The notes under the pieces: model-generated | The model's input: the letters and a program-made list of their open reading frames with translations, nothing else | Database searches by the model: none | Told to the model about the DNA's origin: nothing | Position numbers and translations under genes: made by a program | NCBI GenBank assembly: GCA_030248195.1 | Contig: JASAND010026561.1 | Location: forward strand, 1-64,000 | Source: Trissonchulus latispiculum | Lineage: Eukaryota > Nematoda > Enoplea > Enoplida > Ironidae | Reading direction: 5' to 3' | DNA: 64,000 nt | In this document: piece by piece, positions 9,101 to 62,855 of the stretch | How positions within the stretch are numbered: position 1 is the first letter of the stretch | How the letters are laid out: every line of letters starts with the position of its first letter

Positions 9101-12100
9101 TCGTTTGCATGAATCTTTTGTGTCTTGATTTGCTTGCTATTTACTTTTCAGTAACTCTTTCCATTCTGTTGCCTTGTTTACTGTTTCCAGACGTTCCTGC
9201 GGTCTGCTTTGAAGTGGTCGTTTCCTGTGTCAACACTAGAACGATGAAGGTCAGCTGGCGTCACATTGACTCCGCGGCTGGCTCCAGTCCAGTACAGGAA
9301 TATATCATACAGATAAATGCTGGATTTGACCTACTAAACTGGGAAACCTATCCCAGTTCTTTGCCAGCCTCAGAAGCTCCTGCAGATGCAGATGGCATAC
9401 GAAGCGGAGCCATCAAGGTGGATGTCTCACCCTGGGGTACCTATAAAGCGAGGGTCATGGCTAGAAATGAGGTATGTGTAAAGTTGGCAGATGTGAGGAA
9501 AATTGCTTAGGTACGTTCGCATATAATGTAAAATTAGGTGCGGGGGCACGTCCTTCTGTAGAGTCATCACTGTACCGACCAGCACACATTGCGGTCACCA
9601 CGGGTAGACCAAACGCAAAGCAGCACATAATATTACCTAACTTTTTCCTACAGGGGGGCGGGGGGCGGGGGGCAGGTGTTTCTACGCAGTAGTTGTTTTC
9701 ATCATCATCATCATCTTCGGAGGTCGGATCAGGCAGGGCCTATATACGGCGGGCCAGAAGCCCACTGTCGCGGAGGAAGCATAGGACGGCTACCGGGGAT
9801 TCCCGTAGGCAGGAAAGATTTGGGTTTGGACCAAGATGGAGAAACCGTGGTCTGGTGTGCCTGGGGCACCGTAGAATAAGGTGCTCCAGATCCTCATCCT
9901 CCCCGGACTGGCAATGGGGGCATGCTGGGCTAGGGTAGGCTATCGGGTCGAAGGTGTGTTTGACAGATTGGAGGAGCAGGCATTTTCCGGTACGTAGTTG
10001 GCTAAGCAGGGATCTGTCCTTTCGGGTTAAGCCTGCCTCGTTTGAAGCAGGGACAGGGCCGAAGTCTCCGTAGATTTGTTTTCCCCGAGGATGGGCTAAG
10101 CCTCCTCTCCATTTACAGTCAAAATGTCTTCTGATCACTGATCTGGCGGTTTGGAAGTCGATTGGTGGCTGTTGCTGTGGGAGGAAACACCCTTGGCCAG
10201 CAAGGGCGTCTGCGATTTCATTACCCGGGACTTCAGAATGACCCGGCACCCATTGGAAGATGAGGTGGTGGTGGGATAGGGCCTTTAGGTTGATGTGCAC
10301 TTCCCTTAGCAGTTGGCTGAAGTTTGCCCGGAGACCACTCTTGAGCAACCTTACAGCAGACTGCGAATCTGTGCAGATAATGATGGTAGAAGGTGCTGGT
10401 AAGGTGCCGCTGTTTTCCCGGACCCAGTCCAGAGCCTTGCAGATTGCGGTAAGTTCCGCTCTGAAGCTGGAGCAGAACTTACCAGCAGGATGGCTCAGCT
10501 TCGCTACTTCGTCGCCGCCGCCAGTAGTTACGTAGATTCCACTGCCTCCATTTTCCACTCCGCCGGCCGCGGCTCCATCCGTCCAAATGATGAGAGACGG
10601 CTCCGGGTGGGCTGCGAGTGCTGCATTTGTAGCAGCTAACTTCACTGGGACTGGGTCGGTTTTCCGGACAGGCACAAGTAGCTGTGGATAAGCTTCGTCC
10701 ACCAGCAACTTGTCGGACGGCCTGATGATGGTGGATGGCAGGAGGGGATCTCTGGTGCAATCTTCAAGTCCGCATTGCCTGGAGATCGTGCGGCCCGCAT
10801 CTCGCCAGGACGGCTGGCTCTTCAGGGATCGTTGGTTGGCAGCAGGTTGGTCGCATGAGGTTCGCCTTGGGTTTGCCTGTGGGAGCCGCATAGATTTCTC
10901 ATATGCCACAGCCGTCAGCTGCTGCCGCCTAAGGGACCAGGGAATAAGATTTGCCTCCAGCAGCAGTAGTTCCACTGGTGCTGCCCGCAGGCAGCCGGTA
11001 ACGGTACGGGCGGCCATATTTTGGATAACTTCCAGAGTATTGATATGGGTTTCAGCGGCGCAATACATCCATCCTCCTCCACAATATTCAATTGCTGACC
11101 TGATGAAGGTCAGGTACAGCAGTCTGAGATCTTCCTTTGCGCATCCCCAGTCAGTGGACGCAACAGCCGACAGAACCCTCAGCCTTGGCCAAGCCTTTGA
11201 TTTCAGCTTGGCAACATGAGGACCAAAGTTGAGGAGTCTGTCGAAGGTCACCCCGAGGAAGACAGGGTTGGCTTGGAAAGGGATGTTCTCCGCTCCGATC
11301 GAAAGATTGGGCCGGTAGTTGGCTTCCTTATTCCAGGTGGTGAAGAAGGAGGCTTCGCACTTGGAAGCATTTATGGTGAGTTTCCATTTTTCTGACCACT
11401 GATGGATGGAGTTCAAGGCGTCCTGCATGAGCCGTTCCGCTGAGGCCAGGTTTGAATCCTGTACCCATAGAGCCAGGTCGTCGGCAAACAGAGATGCCTG
11501 CACACCGGGTGGCAGGTTGTCCAGGATGTCGTTGATGAAAAGGAGGAACAGAGTGGGCGATAGGCAGCTGCCCTGGGGGACTCCGTGATGGAATTTCCTG
11601 TATGGACCAGTGCTACCGTTGAATTCCACCTTTCCCAGCCTGTCTGATAGCAGATTCTTGGTCCATCTGACGAAGCATATGGGAAGGCCCATATCGATCA
11701 TTTTCCGGACCAAACCCGCTTTCCAGACGGTGTCAAATGCTCTCTTGAAGTCGATCAGCACGAGCAGAGTCCGCTTAGGCGGGCGTTTTGCGGCAAAACC
11801 GTCAGTGATGGACTGGATCAGGCGGATTATCTGGTCTTCAGTTGAGCGGAGCGGGCGGAATCCGGCCTGCCTATCATCCAGCGTCTTATTCTCCTCCAAC
11901 CAGTGCATCAGCCTAGCCTTCACCATCTTCTCGAACAGCTTAGCAATGCAACTGGTTAAGCTGACAGGTCGATAGGAGGCCACATCGTCCGCCGGTTTCC
12001 CTTTTTTCAATATCGGGATTATTTTCGCTCTCTTCCAGGCACTGGGTGTTTCTCCACTGGACCATGACAGGTTGAAAATTTCCAGTAGGCAGTCTTGGCC

Positions 12101-15100
12101 GTGCGGTCCCAGATGGCGAAGCATTTCATTTGATATTCCGTCTAGGCCTTCAGCTTTCTTCAGTTTCATTTCTGCCAGAGCTGCCTTCAGCTCCGTGGTA
12201 GTGAATGGCTGACAGAAAGGGTCTTCACAGTGACATCCAGTCTTCAGGGAATTGTGGTTGGCCCGGATGATTTTGCGATCGTCCTTCGTTTCCTTGAGGT
12301 GGCTGACTGAGGCGTATTCTTGAACGAATCCTTTTGCCTTGGCACTGTCTGATGATAGCAGTTTTCCACCCCGTCTGAGAGCCTGGCCAGAGTTTCCTTT
12401 GTCAGAGCTGCCGCTGATCGATTTAATAGTTCGCATCACTTTTGAAGGGTCACTTCGGAGGTCCAGTGTTGCGACGTATTCACGCCAGCTGCAGCGCTTC
12501 GCTTCCACAATAGAATTCCTCAGTTGTCTCTCCGCTGCAATCCAGGCTATTCGGTTGGCTTCAGTCGCTGTGGAAAGGAAAGCACGCTTCCGATCTCTGG
12601 CTTCCCGCACAAGGTGTGATAGGGACTCTGACCACCAAGCCTTCGGGTTTCTTCTACGATTTCTGGGAATAGTCTGCGTAGCCGCTTCCCGGATGAGCCC
12701 GGACAGCCACCTGTTCAGGCTATGGGTGGTGGGTCGGGCAGGTTTAGAGTGGCTGATTCGGTCTTCAATAATATCTCGAAAATCAGTCCACCGCGCTTTA
12801 CTGTAGCAGTAGTAGCGCTTTGGGGCCGGGTAGGATGGTGCAGTGACTAGTTTGAGATCACAGAGAATCGGGAAGTGGTCGGAGGTAGGGGCGTCAACGG
12901 TGTGCCAGGAATACTTCCTGTCCCAGCATCGGTGGAGTAAGGTGATATCAGGACTGGAGTGGACTTTCCTCCAGTCTGGGGATTGATGCGTGTTGGGGTA
13001 ACCTCGTTTCCCAACAGCAATGGGCTGACGGACAACCAGTTGGCTACTGAGTCCCCGATGTCATTTTGGGGCTGCCAAGGGTCCCAGATGGGACTATGGC
13101 CATTTAGATCACCACATATGACAGTCCTGTTCGTGGTGGGCAGGAAGCTAGGATCGAAATTTTGTACTCGCTGGTCTTGGCCATCGTTGAGAATGGGCGG
13201 GACATAGAGGTTGACTATTGTGAAAGGGCCTGATTTCAGTTGAAGGTGGACAGTCGTTGAGTCTGAACAGAGATCATTTGGGACTAGGTGGGTTCTGTCG
13301 TCCACAGCGTATCCGATGCCATGCCTGATTAGGGTTGCCACTCCGCCGCCAATGGCATTAGCCGCTTACCTTCCCATACGCCTATAGGCATTGATTTCGT
13401 CGAAGCCTGGGATTGAGATCTTTTCACCAGGCTTCAGCCAGGTTTCCTGGATAAGCACCAGGTCGACCTTACAGTCCCTTATGAGTTTCTCTAGGACAGT
13501 TCGTTTCCGGTTGACTGCCCCCACATTCCACTGAAGAATCCTCAAACTGTCTCTCGGTTTGGGGGGTAGTGGGCGGCCATCAGTCAGTTTCCAGGTCAGG
13601 TCCTGCCTGACCCTAGCAGGGGCTGGCAGGGCTTGGGAGGCGCTGGGGGTGTCAGCAGGTGGAGGCAGGGGCGGTCGGGGGTTTGGTTGGGATCCTGCTG
13701 GCCGCCGGGCCGGCAATGGCCCCTGAGCGGGAGGGGGGGCAGTCGGTTGCCGGGCCAGCGATGGCCTCTGGGATGGAGGATCACAGGGAGGGCAGCGGTA
13801 GCTGTTGAGTTCAGGCGTGGTCATGCGGTTTAGGTCAGCCACCCGGATCTGAGCACAGTCCCTGGCGTGAACCCACGAACCACAGCAGGTGCACTTCAGT
13901 GAATAGTCCGAATAGCCGACACCTCGGCCACAGACCGAGCAGGGCCAGCGGGGTTTGGAAGGAATAGGGCCCGGGTTGGGCTCAATATCACCGGCGCACA
14001 GCAGAAGGAGGGCCCAGTAGGCCGGTTTACCAGGCCCTCCTGTCAAAAACCCGGCACGATCCAGGGGAAAGGTAGCCGTATGCTTCTTCCGGAGGACAGC
14101 CTCGGTGTTGAATCCATTTGGTCGGCAGATGGCAGGGAATCTGTCTTCTGCACCAAGCCGCCCCACTGCGGCAAAGCGGATTCTTCGGAGCGGCAGTAGT
14201 TGTTTTCATGTAGTGTAGTATATGTACATTGCGTTGCAGGATTAGTCGAATTGTGGCTGTAAGCTAGATGTTTCACGTTGAATTCTAGGTGGGCGATAGC
14301 TCTCCGGCTGAGTCAGCGACGAATTGCAGTATACCCGCAGCTGTGCCTGATATTAATCCAAGAAATGTGAAAGCCAATGGAAACGCGCCTGGAAACTTGA
14401 TTGTCAGCTGGGATGTAAGTAATTGAAGGCTGCCCAAATGGTTGGGGAGGGGGGGAATGGAAGATTCCATAATTCATGTTTTTGTTTCTAGATTGATGGG
14501 TCCCTTTCGGAAATTTTCATATTTCATATTCAGGTTTCATATTTTCTTTATGCAAGAACTCTGTACTATCTACTTGCCTTTTCATGCAATTTGTTTGGAT
14601 AGTAAGTTGTACTTTATCGAAATTCATGTATGACTACACCTATCTAACATCTTCTAAAATCTCTTTTAGTGTTCCACCTTTTTTCCTGTTATAATTTCAG
14701 CCGATGGGTAAGGATGAATGGAACGGCCCCGGCTTTGAGTATGTGGTCAGATGGAGACCGGAGGATAAAGAGGATAAGGACGGAGACGGGCCGGAAGAGT
14801 GGCGAGAGAAGGAAGTGAAGGATCCCTACGCGGATCATTTGGTGATTGATCAGGCCCTAGACGAAGAGATGTCTGACGATGTCTACGAGCCCTATGAGGT
14901 CCAGGTTCAGGCCCAGAACGAGGAAGGCGTGGCTGCCGTGGCCCCGGAAACCAGAGTTGGTCATACGGGACAAGGAAGTTAGTGAAATAGAGCAGACAAC
15001 TGCGGTCATTAACGAATTGGTTGTGTTTTCACGTGACTGACTGGTGTTACAAATTTGAATTTTTGGTGATGACATTTTACAGAATGGATTATGGTGACTA

Positions 15101-41171: not shown

Positions 41172-42515
41172 TTTCCATTTTGCAACACGGTTTCTTACCT
41201 GGTCGCTCAACAGTTTCCCAACTCTTACAGTGTTTAAATGATTGGACTAAAGCAGTTGACAGCGGAAGCTTTGTAGATGTAATTTATATGGATGTGGCAA
41301 AGGCATTTGATTGTGTGTCTCATGAAAAGCTATGTCAAAAACTTTCTGCCTTAAAAATACCTCCGACTGTTCTTGAATGGATTTACGCGACTATTTAAGC
41401 AATAGAAAACAGTACGTCAGTATTGTTTACCAGAAATCTCCTCTTTCCGACATAACCTCCGGTGTTCCGCAAGGGAGTATATTAGGTCCCATTTTATTTC
41501 TTGTGTACATAAATGACTTAATAGATGCTGTAAAATTTGCTAACATAAAATTATATGCTGATGACTCTAAGCTTTATATAGTTTTCAATCAACCACAAGA
41601 AACCGAAGCACTGCAAACTGACCTAAACAATGTTTGCGACTGGTTCACTAAAATGCAGTTAAACCTTGCTGTTAGTAAATGTACTGTTTTGCACATTGGT
41701 AACAAAAATCCATGTTCTGTTTATAATCTAAATAATGACCAGTTACTTTCTGTACAGTATGCTCGTGACCTTGGAGTTTTGATGCAAAATAACTTAAAGT
41801 TTGATATGCATTGTACTGGTATTGCTTCCACCGCTTCAAAAATGGCAAACTTAATTTTGAGAAGTTTCAGTACTAAAAATCGTTCTTTTCTAGTTAAGTT
41901 ATTTAATATCTATGTAAAACCTAGATTAGAATACGCTTCTGAAGTTTGGTCGCCATACTACATAAAAGATATAAACACGATTGAAGGTGTTCTTAGAAAG
42001 TTTACTAAATTCCTCCCTGGTTTAGGAAACTTAACTTATCCTGAAAGACTGAAAAAATTAAACATTATTAGCCTAGAAGAAGGGCGTCTAAGAAAAGATC
42101 TTATAATGGTTTATAAGATTCTAAACCATTTAACGGATATACACCCCGAAGACTTTTTCAGTAAAGCAGTTCTAACATCAAATCGTGGGCATAGCCTAAA
42201 ATTATATAGAAATCATTCTAAAATTTTGTGTAGATCAAGCTTTTTTTCCAATAGGATTGTTCCTATTTGGAATACTTTACCGCAGTATATAGTAATGTCA
42301 AGTTCACTGGATAGCTTTAAAGAACAACTGTCTACTTATGACTTGTCTGTGTTTTTGAAAGGTGTGGCGTCAGTAGCAGTTTAACAACGGCTCTGCCACT
42401 ACCTCAGATTGCAGGTTGTTTTTCTTATTTTTTGTGTTGTTTTGTTATGTACCTATAGTTTACTTTTTGTACCTGTTCTTCTGGCATTAAACTAAACTAA
42501 ACTAAACTAAACTAA
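41172..42515 (+). mobile_element. 5'-truncated LINE inserted in the left flank repeat
   Basis: The insertion is flanked by ACAGAC (41166-41171 and 42516-42521). The right flank repeat has one uninterrupted ACAGAC at 48653-48658, a natural empty site. The 3' end is a (TAAAC)n tail. Only the RT C-terminal half remains. The short tail repeat and sequence suggest a CR1/Jockey-like group; clade not settled. Confidence 0.85.
41180..42384 (+). pseudogene. LINE reverse transcriptase fragment with one frameshift
   Basis: 41180-41398 reads QHGFLPGRSTVSQLLQCLND and VIYMDVAKAFDCVSHEKL. A 2-bp insertion of CG near 41388 ends this frame. The next frame (41377-42384) continues YLSNRKQYVSIVYQKSP, SGVPQGSILGPILF and the catalytic KLYADDSKLYIVF, then the thumb and C-terminal region with SRLEYASEVWSP-like text (PRLEYASEVWSPYY), ending at TAA 42382-42384. 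No RNase H. Confidence 0.85.
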
Positions 42516-43172: not shown

Positions 43173-46100
43173 TCAGCAGGAGCAATTTTTGCAACCAGAG
43201 TTGGTATTTCCTTCCTTGCTGTCGCAGCACTTGCAGTTGCAGGCATTCTCGGATTGACCACAGCAGGAACAACACTTGCAACCACAGTTGGCATTTCCTT
43301 CCTTGCAGTCGCAGCACTTGCAGTTGCAGGCATTCTTCACTCCACAGCCGGTGCAATTCTTGCAACCGCAGTTTGGATTTCCTTCCTTGCAGTCGCAGTA
43401 CTTGCAGTTGCAGGCATTCTTCAAGCCACAGCAGGTGCAATTCTTGCAACCGCAGTTTGGATTTCCCTCCTTGCAGTCGCAGCACTTGCAGTTGCAGGCA
43501 TTCTTCAAGCCACAGCAGGTGCAATTCTTGCAACCGCAGTTTGGATTTCCCTCCTTGCAGTCGCAGCACTTGCAGTTGCAGACATTCTCGGATTGACCAC
43601 AGCAGGAACAACACTTGCAACCACAGTTGGCATTTCCTTCCTTGCAGTCGCAGCACTTGCAGTTGCAGGCATTCTTCACTCCACAGCAGGTGCAATTCTT
43701 GCAACCGCAGTTTGGATTTCCTTCCTTGCAGTCGCAGCACTTGCAGTTGCAGGCATTCTTCAAGCCACAGCAGGTGCAATTCTTGCAACCGCAGTTTGGA
43801 TTTCCCTCCTTGCAGTCGCAGCACTTGCAGTTGCAGGCATTCTCGGATTGACCACAGCAGGAACAACACTTGCAACCACAGTTGGCATTTCCTTCCTTGC
43901 AGTCGCAGCACTTGCAGTTGCAGGCATTCTTCACTCCACAGCCGGTGCAATTCTTGCAACCGCAGTTTGGATTTCCTTCCTTGCAGTCGCAGTACTTGCA
44001 GTTGCAGGCATTCTTCAAGCCACAGCAGGTGCAATTCTTGCAACCGCAGTTTGGATTTCCCTCCTTGCAGTCGCAGCACTTGCAGTTGCAGGCATTCTTC
44101 AAGCCACAGCAGGTGCAATTCTTGCAACCACAGTTGGCATTTCCTTCCTTGCAGTCGCAGCACTTGCAGTTGCAGGCATTCTTCACTCCACAGCAAGTGC
44201 AATTCTTGCCACCGCAGTTTGGATTTCCTTCCTTGCAGTCGCAGCACTTGCAGTTGCAGGCATTCTTCAAGCCACAGCAGGTGCTATTCTTGCAACCGCA
44301 GTTTGGATTTCCCTCCTTGCAGTCGCAGCACTTGCAGTTGCAGGCATTCTCGGATTGACCACAGCAGGAACAACACTTGCAACCGCAGTTTGGATTTCCC
44401 TCCCTGCAGTCGCAGCACTTGCAGTTGCAGGCATTCTCGGATTGACCACAGCAGGAACAACACTTGCAACCACAGTTGGCATTTCCTTCCTTGCAGTCGC
44501 AGCACTTGCAGTTGCAGGCATTCATCACTCCACAGCAGGTGCAATTCTTGCAACAGCAGTTTGGATTTCCCTCCTTGCAGTCGCAGCACTTGCAGTTGCA
44601 GGCATTCTCGGATTGACCACAGCAGGAACAACACTTGCAACCACAGTTGGCATTTCCTTCCTTGCAGTCGCAGCACTTGCAGTTGCAGGCATTCATCACT
44701 CCACAGCAGGTGCAATTCTTGCAACAGCAGTTTGGATTTCCCTCCTTGCAGTCGCAGCACTTGCAGTTGCAGGCATTCTCGGATTGACCACAGCAGGAAC
44801 AACACTTGCAACCACAGTTGGCATTTCCTTCCTTGCAGTCGCAGCACTTGCAGTTGCAGGCATTCTTCACTCCACAGCAGGTGCAATTCTTGCAACCGCA
44901 GTTTGGATTTCCCTCCTTGCAGTCGGAGCACTTGCAGTTGCAGGCATTCTCGGATTGATCACAGCAGGAACAACACTTGCAACCACAGTTGGCATTTCCT
45001 TCCTTGCAGTCGCAGCACTTGCAGTTGCAGGCATTCATCACTCCACAGCAGGTGCAATTCTTGCAACAGCAGTTTGGATTTCCCTCCTTGCAGTCGCAGC
45101 ACTTGCAGTTGCAGGCATTCTCGGATTGACCACAGCAGGAACAACACTTGCAACCACAGTTGGCATTTCCTTCCTTGCAGTCGCAGCACTTGCAGTTGCA
45201 GGCATTCTTCACTCCACAGCAGGTGCAATTCTTGCAACAGCAGTTTGGATTTCCCTCCCTGCAGTCGCAGCACTTGCAGTTGCAGGCATTCTCGGATTGA
45301 CCACAGCAGGAACAACACTTGCAACCACAGTTGGCATTTCCTTCCTTACAGTCGCAGCACTTGCAGTTGCAGGCATTCATCACTCCACAGCAGGTGCAAT
45401 TCTTGCAACAGCAGTTTGGATTTCCCTCCTTGCAGTCGCAGCACTTGCAGTTGCAGGCATTCTCGGATTGACCACAGCAGGAACAACACTTGCAACCACA
45501 GTTGGCATTTCCTTCCTTGCAGTCGCAGCACTTGCAGTTGCAGGCATTCTTCAAGCCACAGCAGGTGCAATTCTTGCAACCGCAGTTTGGATTTCCGTCC
45601 TTGCAGTCGCAGCACTTGCAGTTGCAGGCATTCATCACTCCACAGCAGGTGCAATTCTTGCAACCGCAGTTTGGATTTCCTTCCTTGCAGTCGCAGCACT
45701 TGCAGTTGCAGGCATTCTTCAAGCCACAGCAGGTGCTATTCTTGCAACCGCAGTTTGGATTTCCCTCCTTGCAGTCGCAGCACTTGCAGTTGCAGGCATT
45801 CTCGGATTGACCACAGCAGGAACAACACTTGCAACCACAGTTGGCATTTCCTTCCTTGCAGTCGCAGCACTTGCAGTTGCAGGCATTCTTCACTCCACAG
45901 CAAGTGCAATTCTTGCCACCGCAGTTTGGATTTCCTTCCTTGCAGTCGCAGCACTTGCAGTTGCAGGCATTCTTCAAGCCACAGCAGGTGCTATTCTTGC
46001 AACCGCAGTTTGGATTTCGCTCCTTGCAGTCGCAGCACTTGCAGTTGCAGGCATTCTCGGATTGACCACAGCAGGAACAACACTTGCAACCGCAGTTTGG

Positions 46101-47425
46101 ATTTCCCTCCCTGCAGTCGCAGCACTTGCAGTTGCAGGCATTCTCGGATTGACCACAGCAGGAACAACACTTGCAACCACAGTTGGCATTTCCTTCCTTA
46201 CAGTCGCAGCACTTGCAGTTGCAGGCATTCATCACTCCACAGCAGGTGCAATTCTTGCAACAGCAGTTTGGATTTCCCTCCTTGCAGTCGCAGCACTTGC
46301 AGTTGCAGGCATTCTCGGATTGACCACAGCAGGAACAACACTTGTAACCACAGTTGGCATTTCCTTCCTTGCAGTCGCAGCACTTGCAGTTGCAGGCATT
46401 CTTCACTCCACAGCAGGTGCAATTCTTGCAACCGCAGTTTGGATTTCCCTCCTTGCAGTCGCAGCACTTGCAGTTGCAGGCCTTCTCGGATTGATCACAG
46501 CAGGAACAACACTTGCAACCACAGTTGGCATTTCCTTCCTTGCAGTCGCAGCACTTGCAGTTGCAGGCATTCATCACTCCACAGCAGGTGCAATTCTTGC
46601 AACAGCAGTTTGGATTTCCCTCCTTGCAGTCGCAGCACTTGCAGTTGCAGGCATTCTCGGATTGACCACAACAGGAACAACACTTGCAACCACAGTTGGC
46701 ATTTCCTTCCTAGCAGTCGCAGCACTTCCAGTTGCAGGCATTCTTCACTCCACAGTAGGTGCAATTCTTGCAACCGCAGTTTGGATTTCCCTCCTTGCAC
46801 TCGCAGCACTTGCAGTTGCAGGCATTCACGGATTGACCACAGCAGGAACAACACTTGCAACCACAGTTGGCATTTACTTCCTTGCAGTCGCAGCACTTGC
46901 AGTTGCAGGCATTCATCACTCCACAGCAGGTGCAATTCTTGCAACAGCAGTTTGGATTTCCCTCCTTGCAGTCGCAGCACTTGCAGTTGCAGGCATTCTC
47001 GGATTGATCACAGCAGGAACAACACTTGCAACCACAGTTGGCATTTCCTTCCTTGCAGTCGCAGCACTTGCAGTTGCAGGCATTCTTCAAGCCACAGCAG
47101 GTGCAATTCTTGCAACCGCAGTTTAGTTCCTGCTTGCAGTCGGAGCACTTGCAGTTGCAGGCATTCTCGGATTGACCACAGCAGGAACAACACTTGCAAC
47201 CACAGTTGGCATTTCCTTCCTTGCAGTCGCAGCACTTGCAGTTGCAGGCATTCTTCAAGCCACAGCAGGTGCAATTCTTGCAACCGCAGTTTGGATTTCC
47301 CTCCTTGCAGTCGCAGCACTTGCAGTTGCAGGCATTCTCGGATTGACCACAGCAGGAACAACACTTGCAACCACAGTTGGCATTTCCTTCCTTGCAGTCA
47401 GCAGGTGCAATTCTTGCAACCGCAA
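43173..47425 (-). CDS. Giant metallothionein-like Cys-repeat protein (array, 5' end missing)
   Basis: The minus strand encodes about 49 tandem modules of 28 or 29 residues. Type A (29 aa): C-x-C-x-CC-x-C-x6-C-x-C-x-CC-x-CC, ending GQSE. Type B (28 aa): C-x-C-x-CC-x-C-x6-C-x-C-x2-C-x-CC, ending GLK, GVK or GVM. Cys is about 37%, with Lys, Asn and Gly and almost no hydrophobic or aromatic residues: the composition of metallothioneins, which chelate Zn, Cu or Cd in the cytosol. Frame 43173-46577 is open for 1,134 codons. A TAG (Lys to stop) at 46710-46712 separates it from 46713-47258 in the same frame. The last module is diverged (CDSKEGNTNSGCKNCSC then TGA), like a real C-terminus. The right end is cut by a 38-bp deletion and no start exon or signal peptide is seen. 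Could be a decaying or satellite-like array. Confidence 0.6.
43190..47425. repeat. Tandem array of 84- and 87-bp units
   Basis: Units alternate in patterns such as A-B and A-B-B, so 171 bp is a common higher-order period. All unit lengths are multiples of three. Because the units have few stops, long open frames also exist on the plus strand. Blocks of several units recur nearly identically (for example 43340-43600 and 43935-44100), which shows recent unequal exchange. Confidence 0.9.
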
Positions 47426-51627: not shown

Positions 51628-51773
51628 AGAAGCTGAAAAGTTTATGTAAGAACTTAAAGGGATTTCCTTTACTTAAGAACCATACCTTTTCATTTAGACA
51701 AGTAGATGTAGGACATATCTGACACTTGATACCTCCTCCTGGTGTAGTGTGATTCCAGTTTGTTCGTTGCTAT

Positions 51774-52234
51774 TGTAAAAATGTTAGCTCTGTGTGTGTA
51801 CTTCTGAATAAACGATGACTTAACTAATTTATGGAGGTTCACAATCGGTAGTGTATGCCTAAAATAACCTCCTCGTGCCTATTCAAGAAAACCTAATTAA
51901 AATCCAGAAGTTAACCACGATACTTTAATGTTGAAATTAAACAAAATTCGCAACTAACATTTTCCGAACAAATTATCAAATTATAAAATTACCACAAAAC
52001 ACTTCTACCAAAAGAGAAAATACCAATGACTATAAAATAGCCTCAGCTGCCAAACAATAAAGGGCCCAGACTACCCGACTGATCACTCCTAAAAACCCAA
52101 CCAACACTGCCTATATGTTTGAACGTCCTTGCACGCCATCTTTACAAACTACAACCGTAGCTAACTTTTGAATATCTTTATCATTTACAAGAAGATTCAC
52201 GAAAGATTTATTAGAATTCAACGAATATTTCACA
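51774..52234 (-). repeat. 3' LTR of the NADAR element
   Basis: 461 bp, TGTAAAAATGT...ATATTTCACA on plus. It is about 94 bp longer than the other LTR because of a segment at about 51945-52040 that the 5' LTR lacks. Scattered substitutions separate the two, so the insertion is not recent. Confidence 0.85.
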
Positions 52235-54724
52235 TAATTACCCCCTTTTTGGCCCGCGCGCCCACGCCGCTGTACGCGAATCAGTAGACTAAAATTTGGG
52301 TTAACCAACGCAGCGTAGGTACTAATTTGGTAAAACGCGAGTTAGAATTTTGAATCACACCGTAAAACTACACTGGAGAACCTCTGCAGAGGCTGACAAT
52401 GGAGCAGAGCGCCACAACACACACACGGGCCCACTACCGGTGCTTGCCCCGATAAAGCAAAAACAATACGAAACGACGACCACAGACACAAAACAACAGA
52501 CAAAACAAACAGACATACCAGCAACGCGGCACCAGACACATATATACAAGGCCCTATTACTAGTAGACAGGACACAAGGCACTAGAAAACAAAAATGTTC
52601 CCAAACTTCAGGCGAAAAGACAACCATGAATTTCTACATATTATGCAAGATAACCGGACAAAATAGACTATGAACAATGCCATACTAAGGTAGATTCTTG
52701 AATAAAGCACAATGTATAAAGCACAAAGTATAAAGCAGCACCGAATCGGTCATGATGGCAAAACATGGCAGCACAGCAAAATGGCAAGAATTTTTGAAGA
52801 ACAAGGTATCGTGTTCATTTTAGGACAGAAAAGGAAAGAAACACAAACCAAACAGTTAGCAACCCGAAAATTGGAATGAGTAAAATACAACAAGGTTATA
52901 TAGCTGCTAGTAGGACAGAAAGAGGAAAAGAAAACAACCAGACGGTACAATGGCCCAGCCAAGGTAGCGGGCGCCCTGTAGAAAGAACATCCGAAACCTC
53001 GGGCATCCAAGAAAAATGCAATCAGATCAAAGTTTTAAACAAAATTTGAGAAAATTTCTCCCCCGGCTCCCCCCACCCACGCATAACCCTAAACAACCAA
53101 ACACAACCCCCCCCCCACCACATTAAAGATACCAACACAATCACACTATAAGAACTGGGGACAAGAGACAAAAGTAGCGAGCCAAACGCCAAGGAGGGGA
53201 CTTCTGGAAACAGCAAACGCGCCACCCTCACAAACTGGCGCCCACCGCGCTACAGTCCACCCAACGTCACAACCACCCAACCACCATCAACCCACAGATC
53301 ACAAAATTAGGCACCAACCCAAGACCATCAACAAAAGTTCTTGAACATTCACCGAGCTGTCCCACAGTAACCAAACAATAACCAAGTCACCGGTACAAAG
53401 TCATCAAAGACCGTAAACATGTCCCCCCAGTGCCCCCAGAGAGCCGTCCCCCACGGGACAAGAGCCCTCTGAAGAGCCAGATAGCACCAGAACCGTAGAA
53501 CCATACCCAAAAAGGGCCAAACCCAAGTACCGTATCAATAACAGCCGGAACCTCCGGTGTCCCACCATTCCACAAAAACCACCCTGACGCACTTCACAAG
53601 ACAAACCAAAGATAAGGGGAGGCGTAGGCTCGCTGGAAGGGATGGGCGGTGCACATACTTACATACAATACACTTTATTGGTAGGAAACAAGCAACAAAT
53701 TAGTAACAAGAGAAAGTCAAAGAATATACACATCATCAGCAAACGATCACAACTACAAAGACCACAACCACAGAACATAACATATCTACTACCAGCTAAC
53801 TACATACTGGCCCTACCTACGAATTTAAGGAGGGAAACGGACAGAAGTCCAAACCCCAGGAATCCTAAACCTGGGATAGGGACCGCTGCCAGTGCCCTAT
53901 CAAAGAAAAACGGCTAAATAACTACGGAATCTTTGTGTAAGCGCTGCATGTTACTTTCCACCCTCCCCAGAATCACAATCCGGGGAATAGGATCGTAACC
54001 ACAGCGCTATACGAGAGGCGGGAGAAATATAAGAAACCCCAGAACTGTTACCTATACGAATGTTGTGACTGTTTATTAGAGAAATAAAAATTAAAAGGTG
54101 AAAAACCAAAGGGTAAAATTTGAAATCGCAAACGTAGGAGGTTCCGGAAAACACCACAGGAAAGAGGTGGGCAACCACCCCCACATGGGATACCCACCCT
54201 ACAATATCCAGCTAAACAAAATTTGTTAAATACAAGGAAAATCAAGGAGAAACCGGCAATACGTACCCATCCTTTACAGTGACGATTTTCTAATACAAAT
54301 TTCTGATTTAGAGTAAAAGTTCTAATTTAAGGTAAGAGTTTCTAATTTTAGTATAAACATTCCAATTTAGAATAAAAATTTCCTAATTTTAAATAAACCT
54401 TCTAATTAAAAATAAAGATCTCTACTTTAGTAGGGAAGTTCTGATTTAAAATACAAATTTTCGTACGTACGAGCAAATCAAAAATTTTAAAAACATATAA
54501 TTATCAAGACGTCAGGCATAAGACATACGTATTTAGTCAAGTTTTAAAGCACTCTATTGATCGTCGATCTCGTCGTCCATCTCTTCATCGTCGACCTCCC
54601 GGGGCAAATCAGGAAACAATTCAGCACGGACAATCATCAAAAGTTTTCCCATCCAATTTTTCCCCGGACGATTTTTGTCCAAAATAATGTCACGAATTGC
54701 AGTTGCAGATTTGCGCATCAATTT
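52235..54724. other. Non-coding interior of the LTR element
   Basis: About 2.5 kb between the polypurine tract (52240-52250 on plus as CCCCCTTTTT) and the NADAR region. AC-rich on plus, with only short frames and no motif of pol or env. It may be a long 3' untranslated part or a fully decayed gene. Confidence 0.55.
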
Positions 54725-55440
54725 TTAAAAATCAGTCCCAATGCCCCAATACTTATCCTCATACACCGCTTCAGCCAAATACGCGACTCCTGAATTCCGC
54801 AGCGCTTTGTACAGCTGGGGACAAGATCGAACTTTAGCCCGCAAACATTCTAGCATATACATTGGACGCACTACAGATTCATCGTCATGCCACATTTTGC
54901 TCAAAGCAGACAATGCGTCATAAAATATTCCGCACCCTTTTTAGCCGCAAAAGGCGAGCCAGTTTGAACAATTTCGCGCGCTAGCTGATGCAGACCGAAC
55001 CAATCGTAGGTCTTATAAAATTGGTACGGATATTCATTCACGCCAAACTCTCGGCCCCACAACGACATATACTCGTCTTGAACTGTGCCCTCAGGGTCGG
55101 GCTGCAGAGGATACACATTAGACATCGGCATATTACTACCCTTGAAAAACACAACTTGGGTATATTCGCCTACATTATCAGGAGGCATAAGACGATGGGA
55201 CCAAATTTTCGCTTCCAAATCAGCTACAACCTTCTTCAGCAACTTACCCCGCTTTTTTCAAGAATCTTGAACTTTAGAAATTGGCGCTGTAAAAAGTCGC
55301 ATATGGGGATAGGCGCGAATAGGTGGAAAAATGCGCGACAGAGCATCTGCAAAAGCGGCCGTACGGTATGGACAAAAACTCTCAAAAACAATGTCAACTT
55401 GACCTCCAGGTATCAGTTCTTGTAAATGAGCCTTGTACTT
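54725..55440 (-). pseudogene. NADAR (YbiA-like) domain region, frameshifted
   Basis: Below a frame change near 55440 the minus strand reads VDIVFESFCPYRTAAF and, after another break near 55255, the segment 54901-55242 with EYTQVVFFKGSNMPMSNVYP, FGVNEYPYQFYKTYDWFG and SPFAAKKGAEYF. A single-base change near 54910 shifts to 54725-54913, with KVRSCPQLYKALRNSG and AYLAEAVYEDKYWGIGTDF before the stop. The S-N-x-Y-P, E-x-x-Y-Q-x-x-K, A-x-K and L-x-E-A...D-x-x-W-G-x-G pattern is that of NADAR domains, which act on ADP-ribose- or NAD-derived adducts. At least three frame breaks, so this copy is dead. The domain call comes from memory of the family pattern. Confidence 0.65.
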
Positions 55441-57604
55441 TTGATAAACTTTGAGCAGTCAGCGCAAAAGGAATTTCCAAGCGGTGCAAATGGTTATCCC
55501 AGTACTTCCAGGTGGCCACAAAGTACAGATTTAAAGTGGCCGACCCGCTTTTAGCCCGAAAATCTGGAAGGTACGCAATTTGCCACTGAGGCTCTGTATA
55601 CGTCCGAACGGGAACAGCAATTGGAGACTGTTGCACCACCGACCAGACTACTGGCCAGTAGGGCAGGTCAACCACCTGCTGACCCCTGTACGGACGAATA
55701 ATATAAGCCTGTTCTGGCGAAATAGTTTTTGGATCGAAACGGCCCAAATGGATCACGTCTAAAGAAGGACGATAATCCTTTATTGACAAATCAAAAACCT
55801 TGAAAGGGCCTTCATTAACCTCTCCCAGGTACTGAGGATCCCAATCCACTCGAACTGTTCCTCGAGGTGGGTCCATCTCAAAAGGCTCAGGTATTATATG
55901 ATCCAAAACAAGTTTCAAATTATTCTCATGCAGAAAATGCTCCGGTGGCCACACAATAGCCGGTGACTGCGGTACCTGGCCTAGATCAGGCATCTGAATT
56001 TTCGGAACTTGAATAGGCAAATCGGCCGACGGAATTTTACGAATAGGACCCCTGATTGGAGCACGCGGAGGAGGAAGTCGGGGCTCGGGAAAGACAGGAT
56101 TCTCGACATCCATGTCTTCAACGGCCGCAGGTAGAGCGCCCGACAACCCTGAAGAGTCCACACCGGAGACAACATCCGAAGCTGTGTCGGGCGAGGGCTT
56201 CAGAGCCGCCGAACCCCACTGCTCCGCGAAAACAATAGCAAAAATTTTGGACATGTCGACATCCTGCATACGAGTCATGCCCCAGACAAACTCCTGCGCT
56301 GTCCACGGGCGGTCCTTACCTAGCGCCGCAGTACAGACAGTAGCGTCTAAATCAAATTTGCGAATCATATCAATTTGGGTAGTAGACTCGACAGGCGGTA
56401 ACAATGACCAAATTTTGTCCGCAAAATCTAACCTATGCGCAGCAGCCAAGCGAACCAAGTTCCGCACAAAAGTTGTTTGAAAATAAAGATCAGGCGGTAA
56501 ACGCTGTTCGTAATGCGTACGCGCTGCTCCAATTTCTTGTTGTGACAAGCGGCTAGATGGACCCGCCGCTGGCATTGGCGCGGTTGAGTCACGAATAGAC
56601 GCAGCCATAGATGTAAACGATGCCGTGGTCACCACCTCTGCTGGCTCGTTTGCCTCGTACGACCCCACCGGAGCCCGTGGCGGAGACAACTCCACCTGCT
56701 CCAAAGCCCGAAGCTCGGGGTTCGGAGGAGGCGTCGTCGCAGGCGGAGGCATTTCTGGCTCAAAATATAAACCCAAGGACGTACTCATAAAATTTATCTT
56801 CCGTGGCGGATCCTCCTGCGGCACCGGGGTCGACGTGGCCGATGGACCCGCAACGGTCGACGCCTCAGGGGATTCCACCAAACCCGCCGCAATCGGAGGG
56901 GTAGGGCCCGCATTGGAACCAGGGTCCACCCCCGGTTCCTCCGCAGGGACCTGAATACCCCCCGAACCAGCAGATTCCGAAATCACCAAGGGCGCCGAGC
57001 CTTCTGAAATATTGGACGAAGTAATGTCCATCTGGTAAGCAACAAGGCCACTGGGTCTGAATATCAGACGGAAAGTCAACGGAATTTTGGGGGAGGGAAA
57101 CCACACCCGGGGGGTCCCCCACCTGGCACAGGTGACTGCTCTGTTACTGCAACCAACGGCCCCCCAAAACTTTGCTGGAGCATAACTGCATAACCCCCCC
57201 CCCCCGCCTACAGACTGAATATTCGAATTTGGGGCAACCCCCGGAGAGGGTTGGCTCAACTGAGCAGAGAAGTGGGAACCAGGGGACTTCCCCCGTCCCA
57301 CCTCCGAATTTTGTGAATTTTGCACAGTTATAGCAGTAGAACTGGGAGTTGGGGCCACTGGGGAGGGACGGAGCGAGCCCCAACTCACCCAGGACAACGA
57401 CGGACGCGGATCCCCCCAAACTAGTAGTGGGTTGGGGGTGATCCCCCCACCCCCCAAGACGCTGGAGGCAGTGGCAGGCTGAGACATCACAAACTTTTCG
57501 TCAACTTCTGGTGCCCGACTAGCAGGCAAATTATTAAAAGGAAAAACTTTTTCTTCTAATTGTTTTGATCTGGCACGAGTATTGGGAGGAGAAAAAATAG
57601 GCAT
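55394..57604 (-). CDS. Long N-terminal ORF of the NADAR LTR element (736 aa)
   Basis: Starts at ATG 57602-57604, 26 bp inside the 5' LTR (MPIFSPPNTRARSKQLEE). Residues 1-330 are low-complexity Pro/Ser/Gly-rich. Residues about 365-480 are a compact charged region (THYEQRLPPDLYFQTTFVRN, DKIWSLLPPVESTTQIDMIR) that could be gag-like, but no family is recognised. Residues 540-735 are richer in aromatic residues (VRVDWDPQYLGEVNEGPFKV, ATWKYWDNHLHRLEIPFALT). It is cut by a frame change near 55440 after which homologous-looking coding continues into the NADAR domain, so the ancestral protein was probably about 970 residues. Confidence 0.65.
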   Translation of the reverse strand: MPIFSPPNTRARSKQLEEKVFPFNNLPASRAPEVDEKFVMSQPATASSVLGGGGITPNPLLVWGDPRPSLSWVSWGSLRPSPVAPTPSSTAITVQNSQNSEVGRGKSPGSHFSAQLSQPSPGVAPNSNIQSVGGGGGLCSYAPAKFWGAVGCSNRAVTCARWGTPRVWFPSPKIPLTFRLIFRPSGLVAYQMDITSSNISEGSAPLVISESAGSGGIQVPAEEPGVDPGSNAGPTPPIAAGLVESPEASTVAGPSATSTPVPQEDPPRKINFMSTSLGLYFEPEMPPPATTPPPNPELRALEQVELSPPRAPVGSYEANEPAEVVTTASFTSMAASIRDSTAPMPAAGPSSRLSQQEIGAARTHYEQRLPPDLYFQTTFVRNLVRLAAAHRLDFADKIWSLLPPVESTTQIDMIRKFDLDATVCTAALGKDRPWTAQEFVWGMTRMQDVDMSKIFAIVFAEQWGSAALKPSPDTASDVVSGVDSSGLSGALPAAVEDMDVENPVFPEPRLPPPRAPIRGPIRKIPSADLPIQVPKIQMPDLGQVPQSPAIVWPPEHFLHENNLKLVLDHIIPEPFEMDPPRGTVRVDWDPQYLGEVNEGPFKVFDLSIKDYRPSLDVIHLGRFDPKTISPEQAYIIRPYRGQQVVDLPYWPVVWSVVQQSPIAVPVRTYTEPQWQIAYLPDFRAKSGSATLNLYFVATWKYWDNHLHRLEIPFALTAQSLSKVQGSFTRTDTWRSS

Positions 57605-57629
57605 TTACCGCATGAGACGGTCACTAATT

Positions 57630-57996
57630 TGTAAAAATGTCAGCTCCCTGTGTGTACTTCTGAATAAACGATGACTTGACTAATTTATGCAGGTTCACAA
57701 TCGGTAGTGTATGCCTAAAATAACCTCCTCGTGCCTATTCAAGAAAACCTAATTAAAATCCAGAAGTTAACCACGATTCTTTAATCTTGAAATTAAAATT
57801 AGCCTCAGCTGCCAAACAATAAAGGGCCCAGACTACCCGACTGATCACTCCTAAAAACCCAACCAACACTGCCTATATGTTTGAACGTCCTTGCATGCCA
57901 TCTTTACAAACTACAACCGTAGCTAACTTTTGAATATCTTTATCATTTATAAGAAGATTCACGAAAGAATTATTAGAATTCAACGAATATTTCACA
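57630..57996 (-). repeat. 5' LTR of the NADAR element
   Basis: 367 bp. Matches 51774-52234 except for the missing 94-bp segment and scattered substitutions. Would hold the element promoter on the minus strand; no TATA box stands out. Confidence 0.85.
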
Positions 57997-58000
57997 CTAT

Positions 58001-59513: not shown

Positions 59514-62500
59514 ATGCTGCGTATCCTGCTTGTCGTTGCTCTTTCTGTGGTTGCTGCCAATGCCGCGTCAGAGGCTGTGAGCCATGAAGACGCCAGTGTA
59601 GATATCAGGCCCATGGGAACCATGAATATGTGCAAAGAAGACAAGTTGGTCCTCAGCTGCTCTGCGGGAAAGAGTAACAACATTCAATGTAAAGGCCCTT
59701 CTGTAAGTTGCCGTGAAAGCCTGAAGCATAAGTCTCAGTTCTAACACAGGGTAAGCGGGCCAAAGCAACAACAGCTAAGGACCAATTCTTGAAATGGTGT
59801 GAATTTTTTGGTCTTTAATTTGTGTATTTACAATCTTTAAATTATTTGCAAACAAGCCCTATTCTCGAGTAGACTACGGTTTAAAACGAGTCAGTATCTA
59901 TGATTTCTCTTTGAAAAATAGACGCGGCGAACTCCCTTTCTATCCCCAATTTGTCCTACAACTCACAATTTTTTTAATTAATACAAGTTAACTATGACTT
60001 TCAAAATCTGTCATATTATTTCCAACAACTATACAAAATTTCCCCTTGTTGGCTTGTTTCGTTATCCGCGTGATTAGATTTGGAGTTAGCCTTATGTAAT
60101 TAATATTATTTTCGTTGCATTATTGTGCAAGAAGGTTCCATAAAGTCAGCTCTTCTTACTTTTCACGGCCTAGTTTGGCTTTGAAGCTTGAGACCCTTGT
60201 TCATAGATATGCAATTTTACAAAAGGAGGACTGCCAAGCTCAAGTTATGTCCACGCACTTGCAACTATGCTAAATAGTGTTAGCGGTAAATTGCCAAATT
60301 ATCCGTTTCTTCTTTTTCTTTGGAACTAGGAACTAAGACCTTAGCTTTCAAATCGAAAGGCTTCGAAATTCAGATGTAATTTTGTTAAAGTACCGCGTTA
60401 AACTAGAGTAGTCCAAACATGTAATGAGGACAACCATACAGTAAGCGTATCTTTGAGCACAGAATTCTAGGCCAGGGAATTTCAAATTCCAGGACGGCAC
60501 TCGCTTGCTTAGCCTTCACATATCAACGGTTTATGCCGGAGTTTTTGCACAAATCAAGTCCTAAGAGACTGTAAACTAAGTGACAAAATAGCATAATGGC
60601 TTTTAATTGACATTACTACACTAATACAGTAAGATGTTTCTTATATCAATACATTTCGATTGTTGATTTAACGTATTCCTGGTTTTAGATTGTTCTTCTG
60701 CGTGATCACACTGAGGTAGAACCCTTGACTGTGTCAGCCAGGTCCAACAGCGGTGCGTCTGGCATTGGATCAACCATGGAATTCATACTGGATCGCAATC
60801 GTCTGCAGACCGGTTAGTTATGGTTAAGATTTCTTTAATATTTCTAGTATTCATAGGTTAACATAGGTTAACACGGGAGTATGGGGGGGTTTAAAGCCCA
60901 CCAAACCGGACACGGTACAAGCCCGTCAGGGGCAAGGGATAGAAGAAAAGTGGGCACGGGGTAAGCGAAATGGACGGAAAAAATAGGTTTTTGCACCAAA
61001 ATTCCAAAACATTTCTTAATTATTAATTTGTCATGAAAATCGTTCAAAATTTTGAACTTTTTTCTTAAACTTGACAAGTTTTGTTGAAGTTTAATGAAAA
61101 TTGTGAATTTATGTTACTATTAACGTTAATTTATACTTATGGTACAAGCCCCTCGAAAATGTGGGTTCAAGTACAAGCCCCCCTGAAAGCTTTCTTGGGA
61201 CAAGCCCCCCCCCAGGATCCGACCCTATGTTAATGTATGATTACATACCATTGGTGTTCAGTGACAGAGTTTCAATTAAATTCAAATTGAAGTCGGCATC
61301 AATCAGCGCACTCTCTCTCTCTCTCTCTCTCTGATTATGGGCCCAATCGCTAGACATATTGGTGGCAGAGCCATTGGTTCCCCATCAGTTATATCTAGTG
61401 CGACTAATTCGCCTAGATGCTATCCACACAATGGGAAGACGCAGAAAGCCCATCTTGGCCTTACAGCTCCGGGTTGTGTTGCCTCGTTGCGTTAATTACT
61501 CATTGCGAATAGCAGAGGAGCACGGCGCCTTTTACACACCAAACCTCTAGCGCAGATGGGTGGAATCAGAAGAAAACTGCCGGCATGACCATTTAGAGAC
61601 TCCGTACCTAGCACTCCTTCACAGGAAATATGTAGATAATCAATGCATTTAACAGCTACATCTATTCGCTTCCTATCCGTTCCCAGTGAACAAATGTGAG
61701 TTTGTTTCTCAGAACAATATTACGTAAAGTCTTTGAGCTGAAAATTGTTTGACGTTCAGGCTAATTTGCTATGATCAGTGCAATGACAAAGCTTTAACAA
61801 AACAGCCACTTGTAAAACTTATATTTTAGGAATATACACATGCCGAGCTGGATACACTGAATGTCAAGGAAGAGATGATTTTGACATCTACACTGATGAG
61901 CTGAAAATGAATTTTATTGACAACTGCGAAGATGGTCCATTTGAGCAGCCTCGGGCAAGAGAAGGAACCGACACAACAGTTACTCTTAATTGTGTCTGTA
62001 AGTTTGTCTACAAGTCTGCAAATATCTTAGAAAATAGAAGGTTAACATTTTTTATAATCGCAAGCAAGCATTGCAAGAATAGCAGGCAATGTTAAATTTT
62101 GGAAAGCGCAACTTTATGCGCTAAGGCGTACGCTTGAAATGAGTAAGAGCCAAAGGTTTTCTACTCAATTTCGCAGTGTCAAGAGCACACTTTAAAAGGG
62201 GAGTTCTGGGGGGGTCTGGAATCCCTCTTGAACTTCGGTACTAGGGCTAGACAATTATGAGCAAAGGAAGAAACAAAACCGGAAAAACCAGATTAAATAG
62301 AGAATTGGTACAAGTTTTGGTTGAAAATTGCAAAATGTTGTAAATTTGTCGTAAATTTTCAAAAAAATCACTAAACAATAAGGTGGCTCAAAAATATTGA
62401 CCTGGATTTTTATAAAAATGAGCGAAAAGTTTTGAACTGTTGGTAAATTCAGCTCCACCCCCCAAATTGGAGCAAGTGCAAAGGCACGTGAAATTTGGAC

Positions 62501-62855
62501 CAAAACCGGTACAGGACCCATAATCAGTTTTATTGTTAATGTATGGTCGGTCATGAGCATGCCACGGTTATGTATTTGTTACAGGATAAACAATACCCAA
62601 CTTAACTTAACCCATTCCACGATTAATGTTTTCCTTGTTCTAGACCCAGGTCAGGACTTCGGCGATGGCAGCACTGTAATCTGGTACAAGGATGGAAAGA
62701 TTCTTGATACCAATTACCATACAGAAATGGCTCCGCTCAATCTCGAACTTAAGATCAACAATCCTACAGTGGATGATAGCGGAGAATATATCTGCTTTCA
62801 CAAGAAGGGAAACAAAGTGTTCCGCAACAAGTCCATCCTCACTGTGCAACGATAA
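59514..62855 (+). CDS. Secreted protein with two Ig-like domains (four exons, 230 aa)
   Basis: Exons 59514-59702, 60689-60812, 61830-61997 and 62644-62855 join in phases 0, 1 and 1 with AG/GT at each border, giving 230 residues. The N-terminus MLRILLVVALSVVAANA is a clear signal peptide. Domain 1 (about 25-120) has LVLSCSAGKSNNIQC and closes with GIYTCRAG. Domain 2 (about 140-228) has TTVTLNCV, VIWYKDGKIL and VDDSGEYICFHKKGNKVF, a textbook D-S-G-x-Y-x-C. There is no TM segment or GPI signal after the last strand (it ends LTVQR). Probably an extracellular binding or immune protein; no orthologue recognised. The ATG is the first after the TATA-like box. Confidence 0.82.
61311..61332. repeat. 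(CT)n microsatellite
   Basis: Eleven CT units in the third intron region of the secreted Ig gene (intron 60813-61829). Confidence 0.95.

Follow-up and report, generated by a model that had tools for sequence, protein, structure and literature searches.

The window analysed here is a 64,000-nucleotide stretch of DNA from the nematode Trissonchulus latispiculum (assembly GCA_030248195.1, contig JASAND010026561.1, positions 1-64,000, forward strand). Its minus strand carries, from 57996 to 51774, one long terminal repeat (LTR) element, which is a dead, internally deleted derivative of a large Ty3/Gypsy retrotransposon. Other copies in the same genome encode a Gypsy-type Pol and, downstream of it, a separate third open reading frame (ORF3) that ends in a NADAR domain; we hold this anatomy with high confidence. 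The function proposed for the domain, removal of ADP-ribose from guanosines of the element's RNA or cDNA, is put forward tentatively, at slightly under an even chance. Taken as a whole, a deleted Ty3/Gypsy copy whose ORF3 NADAR would act as an eraser on element nucleic acid is probably the best explanation of the locus.

The deleted copy in the window

A repeat search of the window returned two pairs of direct repeats, both 5.8 kb apart: 51773-51941/57629-57797 (169 nt, 96% identity) and 52034-52234/57796-57996 (201 nt, 98% identity). Trimmed to TG...CA, they give LTRs at 51774-52234 and 57630-57996, which differ by 11 substitutions in 367 aligned bases (Kimura two-parameter distance, K2P, 0.031) and by an indel of ~94 nt. 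All the marks of a Ty3/Gypsy LTR element are present, namely TG...CA LTRs, a primer-binding site (PBS), a polypurine tract (PPT), and a target-site duplication (TSD) of 4-5 bp. The original prediction, made from the window's letters alone, had reported the paired LTRs, the CTAT duplication, and the PPT, and each was found where it had been placed. The features of the copy are as follows, in the direction of the element.

57997..58000, no strand: CTAT, target-site duplication flanking the 5' LTR (direct reading)
57630..57996, minus: 5' LTR (TGTGAAATATTCG...CATTTTTACA) (repeat pair; 367 bases aligned with the other LTR)
57608..57629, minus: degenerate PBS, TTAGTGACCGTC (position directly 3' of the 5' LTR)
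57047..57604, minus: remnant of the Gag N terminus, covering the first ~164-186 residues of the 736-aa frame (Gag comparison)
55397..57046, minus: central and later part of ORF3, joined to Gag without a change of frame (ORF3 comparison)
55261..55458, minus: continuation of ORF3 in a shifted frame, then a stop (frame reading; no Pfam match alone)
54904..55257, minus: N-terminal half of NADAR, with E and K of NEYPYQFYK retained (no Pfam match alone)
54728..54940, minus: C-terminal half of NADAR in a different frame (YLAEAVYEDKYWGIG) (PF08719, E=2.3e-5, 25.1 bits)
54557..54724, minus: last part of NADAR, beyond an in-frame stop (NWMGKLLMIVRAEL) (PF08719, E=0.01, 16.5 bits)
52251..54556, minus: long 3' region (no match to gag, pol, or ORF3 of the family at E<=1e-5)
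52241..52250, minus: PPT, AAAAAGGGGG (just before the 3' LTR)
51774..52234, minus: 3' LTR (repeat pair)
51770..51773, no strand: CTAT, target-site duplication flanking the 3' LTR (direct reading)

The PBS position is mutated, with TTAGTGACCGTC in place of the TTGGCGACCGT that directly follows the LTR in seven other loci (L077, L036, L042, L051, L046, L043, and L068). At the opposite end, AAAGAGGGGGTAATT precedes TGTGAAA at the PPT-LTR border of C8618 and C20780, two copies that bear pol. The coding region of the window copy begins ~25 nt past the 5' LTR with a 736-aa frame (55394-57604) that has no Pfam match at E<=1. Because its first ~164-186 residues are Gag, this frame is a Gag-ORF3 fusion and not a single gene. 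The Gag remnant is 57% identical over 211 columns (66% over residues 1-164) to the beginning of gag next to the LTR of C20780 (L077), and residues 187-722 are 70-72% identical to the best non-self ORF3 matches. At the junction, the remainder of gag, pol, and about 625 residues from the front of ORF3 are missing. Past 55397 frameshifts and stop codons disrupt the reading frame, leaving the NADAR domain in fragments at about 55158-54617.

The long minus-strand protein of the original prediction is therefore present, with a broken NADAR domain at the end of the coding region, although it is a fusion of two genes. Its NADAR assignment was borne out for two of the pieces, which match PF08719 below the gathering score (the curated cut-off, 35.1 bits) that two open relatives exceed; the N-terminal piece has no match. 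Against PDB, the piece at 54728-54940 has NADAR 8bau at E=0.21 and YbiA 2b3w at E=0.42. With related pol and integrase as queries, no pol or integrase match (E<=1e-5) was found between the window LTRs, in agreement with the prediction. Its view of the element as one of a pol-less kind has to be given up; other copies have a Ty3/Gypsy pol upstream of ORF3, and the window copy, with an LTR pair and a gag remnant, has lost it. The long 3' region has a counterpart in C8618, where ~2.5 kb likewise separate ORF3 from the 3' LTR.

The parent family, ORF3, and a second NADAR-bearing lineage

A search of the genome for further copies, as had been proposed with the original prediction, gave 66 ORF3 matches on 58 contigs (61 candidates scored of 1,567). 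In family copies ORF3 is ~1,520 aa long with NADAR at its C terminus. The domain is above the PF08719 cut-off in both open copies scanned (L010, 53.3 bits, E=4.9e-14; L032, 55.5 bits, E=1.1e-14) and is the sole Pfam match of their ORF3 at E<=1. A Gypsy-type integrase (IN) lies upstream of ORF3 in all three copies read at this point (C8618, C11413, and C2134). The C11413 piece (L075) has reverse transcriptase (RT), RNase H, and the integrase zinc-binding domain above Pfam cut-offs in one open stretch of 1,367 aa. Its protease (PR) match is weak (E=0.011-0.04, below cut-off), and the IN core, truncated by the end of the piece, is above cut-off in L070. The resulting order, PR-RT-RNase H-IN with PR weak, is that of Ty3, and the PDB entry nearest to the RT-RNase H core is the Ty3 Gag-Pol structure 7q5b (E=1.1e-93). 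NADAR was not found in the 1,367 aa, which extend from before PR to IN. Ty3 is not known to have an ORF comparable to ORF3.

The integrase query gave 135 matches (135 candidates scored of 5,722). Thirty-two of them, 30 with at least 81% identity, were compared with the 66 ORF3 matches. In 21 of the 66, an integrase of 84-100% identity lies 2.57-3.10 kb upstream on the same strand. The distances agree within ~0.5 kb, which argues for a single element and bears out the prediction of a retroelement family that carries a NADAR domain. Nine of the 30 integrases of at least 81% identity have no adjoining ORF3 match. With both LTRs included, the copy C8618 is 17.7 kb long. Its integrase lies in a frame of 2,726 aa without a stop, presumed to be gag-pol, and its ORF3 is open for 1,516 aa. 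Several copies have the integrase within an open frame of 2,700-3,000 aa, and LTR, PBS, and PPT are all present in both C8618 and C20780. A close pol relative, C11078 (L079; IN 71%), has two ~360-aa ORFs without a NADAR match in the 3 kb read behind IN, a span shorter than the IN-to-NADAR distance in C8618 (about 4.7-5.2 kb). The C8611 piece (L078) stops at the contig end after 943 bases. Put together from pieces of several copies, the complete element would read LTR - PBS - gag - PR-RT-RNase H-IN - separate ORF3 - long 3' region - PPT - LTR. Outside this genome no close ORF3 relative was found at E<=0.001 among 4,836 candidates, nor among viral contigs, in collections that may have few animal genomes.

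ORF3 is under purifying selection. It is open over at least 1,370 aa in 10 of the 29 loci fetched, and nine of these copies form one subfamily. Over their 36 pairs the pooled nonsynonymous (dN) and synonymous (dS) distances are 0.0243 and 0.3555, giving a dN/dS of 0.068 that is biased somewhat downward, since open copies were chosen. The ratio is 0.055 for NADAR and 0.180 for the middle part (residues 381-620 of L010). The tenth copy, L032, belongs to another subfamily and differs from the nine by a dN of 0.093 in NADAR and 0.244 over the whole frame; dS between subfamilies is near saturation. Among the four segments compared between subfamilies, NADAR changes least.

Catalytic residues have been reported for the NADAR proteins of E. 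coli C7 (E88 and K95; PMC11543638) and P. nicotianae (a later Glu, E125). In the present family, the motif NE[FY]PYQFYKA aligns with TEQYYQASKA of a second lineage and VEQYYQSEKA of a virus-like NADAR, both described below, and all three have Glu and Lys seven residues apart. Within NE[FY]PYQFYK, Glu occurs in 27 of the 29 loci and Lys in 26, two loci being without a motif match; a third Glu, within YLAEAV..EDKYWG, occurs in 20. A pattern test found NADAR open in 20 of the 29. By their alignment with YbiA/NADAR hydrolases (PMC11543638, PMC11125620, PMC11833690), these conserved residues probably correspond to the published catalytic ones. EDKYWG also shares its Asp-x-x-Trp spacing with D343 and W346, residues tested in SNA-3 (PMC9303266). 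Unlike the known hydrolases, the domain here is very divergent, has insertions between its motifs, and sits inside a retroelement protein of ~1,520 residues.

A second Gypsy lineage has an ORF of ~690-750 aa with a strong NADAR match (L008, E=2.5e-41) and 102 matches on 63 contigs (68 candidates scored of 1,820). At C4104 it lies just downstream of a different Gypsy integrase, 34% identical to that of the first lineage. When one match for each of the 63 contigs was compared with 54 of 111 integrase matches, 41 of the contigs had this integrase upstream on the same strand, 0.5-4.4 kb off. Thirteen of the 54 integrases had no such ORF match, and one of them (C10583) has a NADAR match ~2.3 kb downstream. 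In L080, a relative within this lineage, the same protein carries NADAR and, ahead of it, a 3'-5' exonuclease domain (PF01612, E=9.1e-7). L008 has no Pfam exonuclease match at E<=1, and DTEG is retained in all three second-lineage sequences inspected. In viral contigs of the same collections, with their possibly few animal genomes, this ORF had one pattern match and no relative.

BLASTP between the two lineages gave NADAR as the sole significant match, at 27% identity. The idea that the front of the first-lineage ORF3 is an exonuclease as well was unsupported; only NADAR aligned confidently, with profiles of low diversity. A NADAR profile search of the genome, with 150 of 2,478 candidates scored, placed all 150 above cut-off. 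The lowest score among them was 124.6 bits, a level at which the first lineage, whose two tested copies score 53-55 bits, would go unlisted. A protein kinase ORF (PF00069, E=4.2e-18; L008:2576-3427) lies downstream of the second-lineage NADAR ORF.

The stretch L001:1-3432 also has a stand-alone NADAR ORF, flanked by a Pox_A32-type packaging ATPase (E=5.2e-9) and an ORF like TATA-binding protein (TBP; E=5.7e-37). Nearby is an ORF that may encode a capsid protein and has no significant Pfam match; by eye, L002-L006 have the same ORF order. We take this element to be polinton/adintovirus-like. Its NADAR has three relatives among 18 candidates, too few for a tree.

Known systems, possible function, and alternative readings

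NADAR domains in retroelements were already known, since a 2025 paper (PMC12477816) reports them in an Ectocarpus Gypsy lineage, in the N-terminal region of Pol (e.g. Gypsy-12_Ec32, YbiA family), and in ORF1 of a Tx1 long interspersed nuclear element (LINE) of the oyster Crassostrea gigas. To that extent the element, of a kind for which the original prediction knew of no description, is not wholly without precedent. These elements resemble the present one in that a retrotransposon carries NADAR; unlike the Ectocarpus Gypsy, the domain here is C-terminal in a separate long ORF3 downstream of integrase. In the literature searched, which excluded preprints and most subscription papers, we found no animal Gypsy with NADAR in ORF3 and no exonuclease-NADAR fusion in a retroelement. 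The available parts of a survey of viral NAD/ADP-ribose systems do not use the word retrotransposon (PMC9503650).

Two other systems offer close parallels in architecture. The bdelloid rotifer LTR retrotransposons Juno and Vesta have enzymatic ORF3s, a DEDDy exonuclease and a GDSL esterase (PMC5408684). They share with the present elements an enzyme encoded in a third ORF behind pol and, through L080, a 3'-5' exonuclease; they differ from L080, where exonuclease and NADAR are in one protein, and the word NADAR is absent from the available text of PMC5408684. A giant 25-kb Gypsy of the orchid Phalaenopsis carries an AlkB m6A RNA demethylase that is active in vitro (PMC9289625). Here too a very large Gypsy codes, in an additional ORF, for an enzyme that erases a mark from nucleic acid; in our case the activity is predicted, and both the enzyme and the modification are different ones.

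Guanosine ADP-ribosylation, on DNA as on RNA, is undone by NADARs (PMC11543638, PMC11833690), and among the hydrolase families tested only NADARs removed ADP-ribose from guanosine bases of RNA (PMC11833690). Since the element has RNA and cDNA stages and its NADAR is under strong selection, the domain would most simply be used on the element's own nucleic acid. ORF3 may be translated from its own, probably spliced, message, and the protein may accompany the element RNA or cDNA, where NADAR would strip ADP-ribose off guanosines and so undo a host defence mark or damage. The second Gypsy lineage might act alike through its NADAR protein with an exonuclease-like front part. Marking by the host would be the reason to carry such an eraser. 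The idea of counteracting host ADP-ribosylation, raised in the original prediction, fits NADAR biochemistry and the mostly retained catalytic-type residues. One may go further and suppose that the animal marks the nucleic acid of its genomic parasites with guanosine ADP-ribose, and that two Ty3/Gypsy lineages and a DNA-virus-like element (A32-type ATPase, TBP), all unrelated to one another, each took a NADAR eraser, in an unrecognised arms race between host and transposons. We regard this extension as doubtful.

The physiological role of NADAR in eukaryotes, animals included, has been called unclear (PMC11125620). The selected, multi-copy NADARs of retroelements make element RNA or cDNA a candidate for the natural substrate, and their many natural variants could be assayed. 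With better-preserved copies in the genome, and with a second Gypsy lineage far from the first, the use of such an eraser by animal retroelements can be tested. If the domain is active, guanosine ADP-ribosylation would seem to act against retroelements in animals, parallel to the m6A eraser of the orchid; if it is inactive, NADAR has still been shown in several mobile contexts of one genome.

A number of observations, with the downward bias in dN/dS already given, weigh against this explanation. The first-lineage NADAR is very divergent, with a PDB match of E=0.0025, so its substrate may differ. L036 has Arg in place of the motif Lys, and the third Glu was unseen in nine of the 29 loci (Asp in L011, Val in L022, seven without a motif match). 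No DarT-family match was found in this genome. As to anatomy, 45 of the 66 ORF3 matches, that of the window included, are without an integrase among the 32 of 135 integrase matches compared. The LTRs of the pol-bearing copies are only 80% (C8618, 429 columns) and 84% (C20780, 482 columns) alike, neither copy has a TSD, although both were read at both ends, and C11413 has no 3' LTR in the 3.4 kb read.

The main alternative is that NADAR serves maturation of the element transcript, by end processing, splicing, or trans-splicing, and not counter-defence. SNA-3, a protein with three NADAR domains that is involved in nematode SL1 trans-splicing, needs residues homologous to the catalytic ones of YbiA (PMC9303266), and RNA processing is what the authors of PMC12477816 propose. 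The PF01612 exonuclease beside NADAR in L080 would suit such a task, whereas a splicing role is less obvious for the stand-alone NADAR of the DNA-virus-like element in the same genome. We judge RNA maturation unlikely.

It is also unlikely that ORF3 is chiefly structural or envelope-like, with NADAR as a non-catalytic binding fold. ORF3 does occupy the position of env, and NADAR is its only Pfam match in L010 and L032. No Pfam envelope match was found in either, however, and the hydropathy of L010 shows no convincing membrane segment, its best 19-residue windows (top 1.74) all falling in one stretch. The catalytic-type residues kept in most loci, and the position of NADAR as the least changed of the four segments between subfamilies, also speak against a merely structural role.

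The Gag-NADAR fusion of the window might itself have been a functional non-autonomous element that pol-bearing relatives moved in trans, as its LTRs, TSD, PBS position, and PPT would allow. The bdelloid TelKA2n, likewise, is non-autonomous, with most of pol missing and an env-like ORF (ORF3) kept (PMC5408684). C2888 (L036), of another subfamily, runs from LTR through the start of Gag to the end of ORF3 with breakpoints unlike those of the window, and C10971 (L015) has the middle of Gag joined to ORF3; because these two show other joins, builds like that of the window arose more than once. The junction of the window itself has no second copy among the loci examined, however, and the 1 kb of upstream sequence read in C4589, a 94% relative, is free of gag and pol. 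With ORF3 as the query, moreover, derivatives that keep ORF3 are over-represented. We think mobilisation of the fusion improbable and keep to the reading of a broken deletion derivative.

The unlike LTRs and absent TSDs fit plain recent insertions poorly, and the open copies might instead be old, held in place by selection, and partly domesticated. ORF3 is open in C8618 and C20780 in spite of their LTRs, and a dN/dS of 0.068 at a dS of 0.36 would be compatible with this. Yet copies are spread over 58 contigs, and several integrases lie in open frames of 2,700-3,000 aa. These features might come about through recombination among elements or misassembly as well as through long survival in place; the C8618 element (C8618:18673-37080; L069, L084) lies antisense between fragments of a related pol whose flanking parts, residues 1045-1085 and 654-827, are non-contiguous. 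Partial domestication is very improbable. A host NADAR gene flanked by LTRs through chance, which the original prediction had named as one possible refutation, has a negligible probability and is ruled out by the other genomic copies, given 21 integrase-ORF3 pairs at a near-fixed distance, an LTR-PBS-gag start at seven other loci, a PPT-LTR border in two pol-bearing copies, and Gag joined to ORF3 in the window.

Other features of the window

The window contains further mobile elements. Minus-strand frames of a non-LTR retrotransposon occupy 9740-14205; the frame at 9740-13060 has RT (E=8.5e-37) and RNase H (E=7.6e-15), and the frame upstream contains GDIEPNPGP, which we take to resemble a 2A-type motif. 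An open frame at 41377-42384 with the RT-like motifs GVPQGSILGP and YADD is, by eye, another non-LTR element. A tandem array at 43174-47404 has a period of 84 (49.6 copies) or, as a double unit, of 171 (24.8 copies, 92% matches). Two plus-strand frames and one on the minus strand run through it for more than 1,000 codons without a stop. An Ig-like match (E=3.4e-5) and a weak Fn3 match (E=0.035), both below Pfam cut-offs, were found at 62436-62855 and 9082-9510, which suggests exons of animal host genes.

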